Under the pieces are notes generated by a model. That model was given only the letters and a program-made list of their open reading frames with translations, did not search any database and was not told the DNA's origin. From the NCBI GenBank assembly GCA_025399215.1, contig MU621191.1:1-56410 (forward strand): a stretch of 56,410 nucleotides of DNA. Reading direction: 5' to 3'. The DNA is from Globomyces pollinis-pini. Its lineage: Eukaryota; Chytridiomycota; Chytridiomycetes; Rhizophydiales; Globomycetaceae. The translations under genes were made by a program, and so were the position numbers. Of the stretch, positions 2,295-4,688 are shown in pieces (the stretch's first letter is position 1; each line of letters begins with the position of its first letter).

Positions 2295-4688
2295 CTACTC
2301 CAATTCAGTGGTGATTTTAGCACTTAATTTCTTAAATTCCCAAATATCACCAACAAGCCGTTTCAAACGAATCCCATAACTTTCCATACGGGGAAGTTGG
2401 CACACTTCCATTTCGAATTTGATATCACCCCATTGACATTCGCAGAGATAATTGTCGTGACACCACTGGATATCGTTGTTTTCAAGAATCGTGCATAGTT
2501 TCTCAAAGAGAGCGTCAGGGGAAAGTGTGGTGGGTGAGGTGAGGTTGAAGGCGAATTTGATGGTGCGTACCGTGGAATCGTTTGTGGAAGGAATGTAGAG
2601 TGTTTCGTCTATAGGTATTGTTTTCTGATTGGATTTGGGGATGCCGAATTTGGTTGTTGGGATAGGTTTGATTATACTTTTCTGTCGGATAGGTGTAGTG
2701 GTGGATTCGCGACTCACAAGACTATTACGGATGGAATCTGGTACAATTGGCAATGTGATGGCTGTATGTGGTGCTGAACTATTAGCCAACAACTTTGTTT
2801 TATCAATTTTTGGTAGATTTTGCATTCCTACCGGGTCTAATTGTCTTCCGCTTCGTCTAGGATTCTTTAACGATTCATGAAAAGGTCGGCCAGACTTTTT
2901 ACGTGATGCTGGGGAACTAGGAATGAGTGGTGTACGTGTCCTTTCGACTTGGAATAAAACTCTGGCCAGTTCTTCACTGATTTCACCTGATTTGAAAGGG
3001 GGACCCTCGCTATTTGCTACTGCGACAGTTGGCACCACTGAAACGTCAGTTTGCGCTTGTGCTAAAATTGCATTGGTAGTCTTGTATTCTTCAGGGGAAT
3101 AGATTTTCTGATACGTCAAAATGAAATATATCCCTGCCAGCTGGTTAAATTTACCATTCAGAACCGATTGAATCACTACTTTTCTTTCATGTCCCATGTG
3201 TTCCATCTGATCAAGTACCGTTGCATCCATTTGATTTTCTAATTTGGGTCGGAACCCTTTATGTACAAATGCGTCTGATGCGATAGGTTCAATAAACAAT
3301 GAGGTGGTATTCAACCAAGGATGCTCCAAAATCTGTGCCATGGTAAGCCGCTTCTTTGGATTAATCTGCAACATTTTTGACAGCAAATCTTTACAATCTA
3401 TGAAATGTATCAGTTGTAACTGAGCAAACCCGAAGATATATAATCTGGTATTTCATATTTCCCTTTCAATATGGATTCATACAATGCCGTGAGATTTGAA
3501 TCGGCAAATGGTAAGTCTCCTACCACCATAGCATATATATTGATTCCCAAGGACCATACATCTACCTCTGGACCAACATACCTATTACCTTCAATCAGTT
3601 CTGGGGCTGAATAAACGGGAGATCCACAGCATGTTTGTAACAGACCTTTGGTTTCATAAAAATTGGATAATCCAAAATCTGGGTTAATTAGTGTTTGTTG
3701 GTTGATTATTACCTTTGGTTAGAGCTTTGAGATGGAGTACCTATTATTCGTCAATCCAAATTTATATTTAAAATACCTATATTTGTTGGTATTTAAAACA
3801 TCAATTACCTATAATTTATTTACAAACAGTCCCATACCTAAAATGAATCATGGTCACGTGATTTACCTATAATTAATTGACACACGAGCAGTACCTAATA
3901 TAAGTATGCACGAGACATTGGCATACCTAGTATCAGTTTGCATAAGATATGGGTTAACCTAGAATAAATTTGTCAGTAAGGGAGGAATGTACCTAGAATT
4001 AGGACATGTATAATTACCTAGAATGAGCCAGAAAGAAGAATACCTGTTATTTTTACATTCATATTTTCGTCGATCAGTAGATTTTCGGCCTTCAAATCAC
4101 GATGAACGATATTAGATTTATGGGCATGATCCTAAAAATTGAGAACAAGATTCATACGAGAGCAGACATTATTTGTTTAGTGAATCGTTTAGCCTCATCT
4201 TCCTTTAACCGACTATTATTTACAATGTATTCCAATAATTCCCCACCATTAGCCAGTTCCAAGACCAAAAACAGATTCTTCTTAGTTTCCATCACCTCGA
4301 ACAATTTAATAATATTAGGGTGATCAAGAATTCGTAATATCTGAGCTTCGCGATGAACATTTTTTAAAGAGTATTCATCAGGTAATTTCGATTTATCAAT
4401 AACCTTAATTGCGACCTTTGAGTGAGATAGACAGTAAATTACTTTATGATTTGTAGGAGTATGAATAGCAATTTTAACTTTAGCAAATGATCCTTCACCA
4501 ATAGTTTGTAACAGTTCATAATTGCCGATTATTGAGGTATTTTTTGAGATATGTTTATCTTTTTTGATTAGTTTGGATTGAGATAATTTAGGAGAGTCTA
4601 AATCTGAATGATCATTTGGAGAGAGAAAAGGAAGCTGGATATTGTCAGTATGGGACATGATGGGTAGAGTGGTGACAGTGGATGCCAT
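2295..4688 (-). CDS. Par-1/MARK/Kin1-like Ser/Thr protein kinase with C-terminal KA1 domain
   Basis: Exons 4688-4443, 4415-4158, 4131-4044, 3678-3421 and 3397-2295 give 650 aa. Kinase features in order are: glycine loop [13 protein letters not shown] lysine, catalytic [30 protein letters not shown] and a C-lobe ending [15 protein letters not shown]. The C-terminus ([20 protein letters not shown]) matches the KA1 domain of MARK/Par-1, which binds acidic lipids and autoinhibits. These kinases act in cell polarity and microtubule regulation. Introns are 27, 26 and 23 nt, plus the 365-nt interval 4043-3679 treated separately. The 27-nt intron 4442-4416 has no stop and is a multiple of three, so it looks coding. 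Removing it turns a nine-residue insert before VAIK into the normal kinase spacing. The NVKIT / DFG codons sit directly on either side of the 365-nt array, so the enzyme cannot be made unless the whole array is removed. Confidence 0.9.
3679..4043 (-). other. array of 12 abutting micro-introns (zero-length exons) in the kinase gene
   Basis: The upstream exon ends ..ATAACAG at 4044 and the downstream exon begins ATTTTGGA at 3678; joining them restores T-D-F-G. The 365 nt between them divide completely into 12 consecutive GT..AG units: 4043-4018, 4017-3993, 3992-3959, 3958-3927, 3926-3895, 3894-3867, 3866-3838, 3837-3809, 3808-3777, 3776-3741, 3740-3713 and 3712-3679 (26, 25, 34, 32, 32, 28, 29, 29, 32, 36, 28, 34 nt). 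Eleven start GTA and one GTT. Ten end TAG, one AAG and one CAG. Branch-like motifs lie near the 3' end of several units (CCTAAT, TACTGAC, ACTGAT, TCTAAC, CACTAAT). Interiors are not copies of each other. All other introns in the window are 22-56 nt, so one 365-nt intron would be a large outlier, while 12 serial introns would be ordinary. Splicing itself is inferred, not seen. Confidence 0.8.

Follow-up and report, generated by a model that had tools for sequence, protein, structure and literature searches.

The DNA analysed in this study is a stretch of 56,410 nt of Globomyces pollinis-pini (contig MU621191.1), which is referred to as the window. Globomyces is a chytrid of the order Rhizophydiales. 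On its minus strand the window carries a MARK/Kin1-like kinase gene, in which three single introns and one train of head-to-tail units are found. These features are given below in the order of transcription.

2295..4688, minus strand: whole kinase gene, 647 amino acids; start codon at 4688, stop codon ending at 2295, train and three introns removed
4416..4442, minus strand: single intron of 27 nt; a paralogous kinase has a three-unit train at this position (K|VAIK)
4132..4157, minus strand: single intron, 26 nt
3679..4043, minus strand: 365-nt train, in phase 1 within the Asp codon of DFG, composed of 12 micro-introns placed head to tail
4018..4043, minus strand: unit 1, 26 nt
3993..4017, minus strand: unit 2, 25 nt
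3959..3992, minus strand: unit 3, 34 nt
3927..3958, minus strand: unit 4, 32 nt, probable partner of unit 5 in an old duplication
3895..3926, minus strand: unit 5, 32 nt, probable partner of unit 4 in an old duplication
3867..3894, minus strand: unit 6, 28 nt
3838..3866, minus strand: unit 7, 29 nt
3809..3837, minus strand: unit 8, 29 nt
3777..3808, minus strand: unit 9, 32 nt
3741..3776, minus strand: unit 10, 36 nt
3713..3740, minus strand: unit 11, 28 nt
3679..3712, minus strand: unit 12, 34 nt
3398..3429, minus strand: single intron, 32 nt

The kinase gene and the tiling of its train

The product of 647 amino acids is uninterrupted once the train and the introns of 27, 26 and 32 nt are taken out. 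Pfam analysis has shown a protein kinase domain (PF00069) at residues 57-309 and a KA1 domain (PF02149) at residues 605-647, and the train lies inside the kinase domain, after residue 197. The earlier note on this DNA had placed an intronic stretch between the NVKIT and DFG codons of a functional-looking kinase gene, and this placement is borne out by the complete product and by the Pfam domain that runs across the junction. The best database match of the kinase is a 359-amino-acid protein of Globomyces sp. JEL0801, which begins at residue 289 and shows a single difference from the window product, at residue 593. This deposited model is without the kinase domain, and trains may trip gene annotation in this way. 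A second open frame in the database is the unspliced N-terminal part of the kinase, which the window encodes letter for letter.

When the minus strand from 4043 to 3679 was cut at every AGGT, the 365 nt were divided into 12 units of 25-36 nt with a remainder of 0. GT..AG ends, as in U2-type spliceosomal introns, were found in all 12 units and AG|GT at all 11 internal junctions, so that the exact tiling described in the earlier note is correct to the base. The upstream exon meets unit 1 in the junction ACAG|GT, and the exon right after the last acceptor starts with AT and not with GT. A gene finder barred from using trains has taken the same outer ends, as one intron of 365 nt, and an earlier gene finder with a flat length prior kept the donor of the train and took a far acceptor (646 nt).

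The chance expectation for this tiling was based on the AGGT rate within 369 single introns (7 in 10,448 nt). At this rate 4e-20 complete tilings of 365 nt by units of 22-40 nt are expected; if AGGT is assumed to be more frequent (0.00157), the value becomes 1.5e-16. A chance origin was ruled out on these values. In 256 kb of DNA, ten AGGT chains of at least five words with 20-45 nt spacing were found, the longest of 12 words, and some of them are coding repeats. Among the 20 control tetranucleotides tried in the same DNA, TGGT gave six such chains (all of five words), GGTA five and TAGG four (both words overlap AGGT), ATGT four and AGAT three, and the remaining ones gave fewer. One AGAT chain has 10 words, and AGAT is also present in the repeat behind an AGGT chain of seven. 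In the 18.5 Mb genome, TAGGT triples with 25-37 nt spacing numbered 206 and triples of the reversed pattern 100; TAGGC, a control that differs in one letter, gave 0 forward and 1 reversed. The pattern AAGGT/TAGGT/TAGGT was about equal in both directions (95 forward, 99 reversed), and the loose AGGT triple was less frequent forward (529+583) than in the reversed control (1399+1549), an outcome probably due to the abundance of TGGA in coding sequence. As evidence for trains, raw pattern counts are weak, and since reversed controls are as high or higher for some patterns, the case rests on the long chains and on frame-exact joins.

An artefact, that is chance, an assembly error or a coding repeat, could draw on the coding repeats among the genomic AGGT chains and on the reversed control that outnumbers the forward count in the loose three-word search. 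Such an origin is hardly credible to us, because the tiling is far beyond chance, the joins are frame-exact in several conserved genes and the unit sequences are too diverged for a repeat error of assembly.

Trains in other genes and their likeness to single introns

The scan for spaced AG|GT was extended beyond the window, as the earlier note had proposed, and 36 trains in many genes were examined. The sampled DNA comprised 200 kb in 10-kb stretches, partly chosen for listed trains, together with 40 short stretches chosen for trains; the counts of trains therefore describe a train-enriched sample and are no unbiased genome-wide figure. AGGT chains with at least three internal units numbered 40. 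Five of them, which are open in one frame and include the train L030, were left out of the similarity tests (35 trains), and L030 was put back for the exon-start comparison, the gene modelling and the pair identities (36 trains). Gene models with at least three units were obtained for 28 of the 36 trains, with 3-12 units each and at least five units in 18; the other eight gave no model with three or more units. The train of the window is the longest of the 28.

Trains were found in conserved genes for Snf7 (10 units; presumably an ESCRT-III protein), a GDSL lipase (8), an MCM helicase (6) and a ubiquitin-conjugating enzyme (5). Further trains lie in the genes of a thioredoxin protein (5 units), which we take to be PDI-like, of a kinase (5 units), assumed to be LAMMER-like, and of a second kinase (3 units). 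Eight of the train-bearing proteins gave a Pfam match. It extends across the train junction in seven of them, namely the window kinase, Snf7, GDSL lipase, UQ_con, thioredoxin and two more kinases, whereas the match of MCM has its start at the junction. No Pfam match was found for one train-bearing fragment, which we regard as SAMHD1-like. Trains are mostly in phase 1 (16 of 28) and single introns mostly in phase 0 (151 of 329). The structure at 3679..4043 is real, but the picture of one exceptional site has given way to a class of structures across the genome. The delay or control function suggested for the train in the kinase finds no support, as the conserved genes that carry trains are unrelated and share no obvious feature.

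The units were found to resemble the ordinary micro-introns of this genome, as had been claimed from the window. Single introns peak at 25-31 nt even under the flat length prior of our home-made gene finder, and the mean length is 29.4 nt for train units and 28.3 nt for single introns, the units being slightly longer (KS p=0.014). Near the acceptor, 162 train units and 329 single introns were examined for a branch-like YTRAY motif, which was present in 53.7% and 60.5% of them, respectively; the corresponding shuffles gave 22.3% and 25.7%, and GT..AG stretches of exons gave 11.8%. This result is statistical and holds over the units together, not unit by unit. Adenine at donor position +3 is found in 69% of train units and 88% of single introns, a gap on which the choice of the single introns with a donor model bears. 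The first versions of the gene finder had found few trains, their charge per unit being too high.

In the gene model without trains, 371 of 380 sites are of 45 nt or less. The nine longer sites, judged by eye and with Pfam for the 224-nt case only, are two trains (365 and 146 nt), two untiled introns (79 and 224 nt), two apparent gene fusions (372 and 457 nt) and three others of 330, 536 and 605 nt. The 79-nt intron, judged real by eye, lies in a presumably HMG-CoA-reductase-like gene and the 224-nt intron in the ATP synthase alpha gene, atp1 (L022 on C4, about 4615-4838). A palindrome-like word, AACAGCAAAGCTGTT, is present twice in the atp1 intron, and a known RNA family was ruled out there, with no Rfam match up to E=1. 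A candidate untiled intron of 330 nt at C1:22905-23234 (plus strand, L011) contains several repeats resembling TCTCATTATTCCTTATTTGTATTTG. In the gene model which allows trains, no unit above 45 nt was found in its seven trains. A search for U1 snRNA gave no match, and its 14 controls gave none either.

The untiled 224-nt intron weakens the statement that 365 nt would be several times longer than any other intron. Since untiled introns of 79 and 224 nt exist, the spliceosome of this organism is not limited to micro-introns and could remove the train in one step; the idea that it is unable to handle long introns was dropped. The train might then be one ordinary 365-nt intron, whose internal AG|GT sites are unused relics of an old tandem repeat, and both its acceptance as one intron by the gene finder without trains and the untiled introns in conserved genes speak for this explanation. 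We nevertheless consider it quite unlikely. Unused sites should decay, but not one of the 11 junctions is lost, even though most interiors show no greater likeness than units taken from different trains, and the branch-like motifs persist over the units together. An AGGT was found 41-85 nt beyond the train at 12 of 70 train ends, and a further unit beyond such a gap at only 3 of the 70, against 162 intact internal units, a count in which decayed trains are under-represented because trains were detected through AGGT words. Internal junctions thus seem seldom to fail, and the rarity of broken trains is what selection on used splice sites predicts. From these sequence features, splicing of the train unit by unit appears the more natural reading.

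Similarity of neighbouring units and the probable growth of trains

Neighbouring units were found to be alike by eye at five loci (L029-L033). At L029 units 2 and 3, which are adjacent and 28 nt long, are identical inside and the next two pairs are 75 and 79% alike; at L030, with units of 27 nt, four of the five neighbouring pairs are 70-96% alike inside and the first pair 43%; at L031 one neighbouring pair is 84% alike. Over the 35 trains, which do not include L030, the similarity of adjacent units was higher than in permuted order, none of 5000 permutations being as high. The signal remained without L029, L031 and L032 (p=0.0024) and was also seen in the window train alone (p=0.0064); it was weak (p=0.035) when the young trains and the window train were taken out, and in most older trains no single unit pair stands out. 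The lengths of adjacent units were not significantly similar (p=0.20). A new unit as a copy of the adjacent sequence, which is the mark of tandem duplication, was thus found in L029, L030 and L031 and in the permutation of unit order.

Within the window train, 64% of interior positions are the same in units 4 and 5, each of 32 nt. For comparison, 19,644 pairs of equal-length units were sampled from different trains; an agreement of 55% was reached by 1.8% of them and one of 67% by none. The statement that the unit interiors are not copies is therefore mostly true, but it does not hold for units 4 and 5, nor does it account for adjacent window units being more alike than a shuffled order predicts. 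Units 4 and 5 may retain a faint trace of tandem duplication. A minisatellite of near-identical units was ruled out for the window train, in which few pairs, chiefly these two, are alike.

Two further likenesses were noted at these loci. Units 1 and 8 of L029 (on C12) resemble each other by eye, a hint of duplication of a block of several units. At L030 (on C68) the first unit (578-604) and the exon after the train (740-747) share their first 8 bases, GTAAAAGA, which would fit an initial duplication of exon DNA. A comparison of unit starts with the start of the downstream exon over the trains, L030 included, gave p=0.10.

An intron at the X|VAIK position, in phase 0, is common to four kinase paralogs (window 4416-4442, L070, L071 and the C7 kinase L027). 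As it is shared by the four, it is probably old. Three of them have one unit there (27, 37 and 35 nt) and one has three units, which indicates a change of unit number at this homologous position. None of the three paralogs compared has an interruption where the window train lies, at DFG.

The downstream exon starts with GT in 10 of 18 trains of at least five units, compared with 41 of 329 single introns (p=3.6e-5); the excess is partly ascertained, as detection was based on AGGT, and the window train is not among the 10. Such an excess is expected if AGGT at both ends of an intron promotes its duplication. It would also fit a gain of each unit as an independent intron into AG|GT, whether by an introner, a transposon, reverse splicing or break repair, which was the explanation first offered for this locus. 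AG|GT is a proto-splice site, and most interiors of the window train are unlike each other, as independent gains would be. On the other hand, no unit families are shared across trains: the best of all 12,680 cross-train pairs from the 35 trains reached 0.55, compared with 1.00 within L029. A search of the genome, in which very common words are skipped, revealed no further copy of the window train. Introner copies were ruled out on these two results. Young trains are made up of nearly identical neighbours, and adjacent units resemble each other more than in permuted order; for these reasons in-register tandem duplication is preferred, and repeated gain into AG|GT, being less well supported, is judged to be unlikely.

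A third route is stwintronisation, in which internal AG|GT sites would have arisen singly, in succession, within a once-long intron, the short units splicing better. This route is proposed for the stwintrons of Lipomyces in the excerpts available of PMC7138796, and the untiled longer introns of this genome are possible starting points. It is nevertheless very unlikely here, since identical neighbours as in L029 and L030 and the similarity of adjacent units are not predicted by it, and partly tiled intermediates were not seen, with 0 units above 45 nt in the trains of the train-allowing gene model.

In our assessment, the probable explanation is that the structure is an intron train, in which 12 individually spliceable micro-introns stand at one position, having grown by in-register tandem duplication with later divergence. 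One intron position would be filled by 12 complete micro-introns, separated by exons of zero length. Where AGGT stands at either end of an intron, the intron could be duplicated exactly and its product spliced to the same mRNA. Growth would proceed by in-register tandem duplication of whole micro-introns, with the AGGT words on either side of a unit as the probable sites of slippage or unequal exchange; we infer this mechanism from the sequence of the units. Afterwards the interiors would diverge, while the splice sites and the branch motif would stay under constraint.

It follows from the sequence that any run excised from a GT to the AG of the same or a later unit restores either AG|GT or the correct exon junction. 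All orders of removal therefore give the same mRNA, and the addition of a unit would be nearly neutral, so that trains could build up. Such path-independence should make the train robust and nearly invisible to selection, and it also lends no support to a special delay function in the kinase.

Known intron systems and significance

In recursive splicing the sites lie far apart. Its ratcheting points, or zero-length exons, are fused acceptor-donor AG|GT sites in Drosophila and vertebrates, and the window train resembles them in its 11 fused junctions without exon between, as far as the excerpts of PMC2773006 describe them. There, however, large introns are removed piecewise (PMC2773006, in excerpt), whereas the window train is 365 nt in total and is no very long intron. 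Moreover, its units of 25-36 nt, up to 12 in number, look like tandem copies and not like sites inside one long intron. The stwintrons of ascomycetes are described in excerpts of PMC12403724 and PMC7138796 as complex intervening sequences with more than one U2 intron, spliced consecutively; two introns are nested, and the inner one splits a splice element of the outer one and hence goes first. The trains are like them in that the intervening sequence is composed of several introns. In contrast, complete introns abut here, the order of removal is free, the number rises to 12 and no terminal element is split by an inner intron, so that the window train is no stwintron in the strict sense.

Tandem duplication at AGGT (AGGC in fission yeasts) is known to yield introns, as in ATP2A1 and the potato RdRp, according to excerpts of PMC4974935 and PMC3629103. 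The likeness to the trains is that the repeated AGGT supplies a new donor and acceptor; in those cases, as excerpted, the duplicated segment is exonic DNA, or an intron together with exon, and the outcome is one intron (PMC4974935, PMC3629103). Here, in contrast, a whole micro-intron has apparently been duplicated in register, repeatedly and at one position. In Cryptococcus, unequal exchange, conversion or slippage raises the intron number within a gene, the introns being near-identical copies in a region of repetitive DNA (PMC2395259, in excerpt). In a train, nothing separates the introns. Introners are similar copies dispersed over many genes, while no similarity across the 35 trains was found here; what they share with the trains is that introns multiply (excerpts of PMC9860276). 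Among the matches listed in the open-access PMC literature no head-to-tail series of up to 12 whole micro-introns was found, in agreement with the earlier remark that a 12-unit series is not known from the literature.

Intron gain and multiplication is a long-standing question, and few cases have been caught in the act. In this compact genome the stages seem to be present side by side, as single introns, fresh tandem copies, copies in partial divergence and saturated trains, and the apparent growth by copying of a neighbouring intron offers a rare direct look at intron multiplication. The trains also lend themselves to testing, in a natural setting, how introns are defined close to the lower limit of length and whether splicing is independent of order. 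Whether micro-intron duplication from AG|GT to AG|GT is a running and largely neutral amplification in this lineage of chytrids, by which any AGGT-flanked intron can grow, is in our view an evenly balanced question. If true, intron number would evolve here by local copying, like a satellite that is hidden from selection by the spliceosome.
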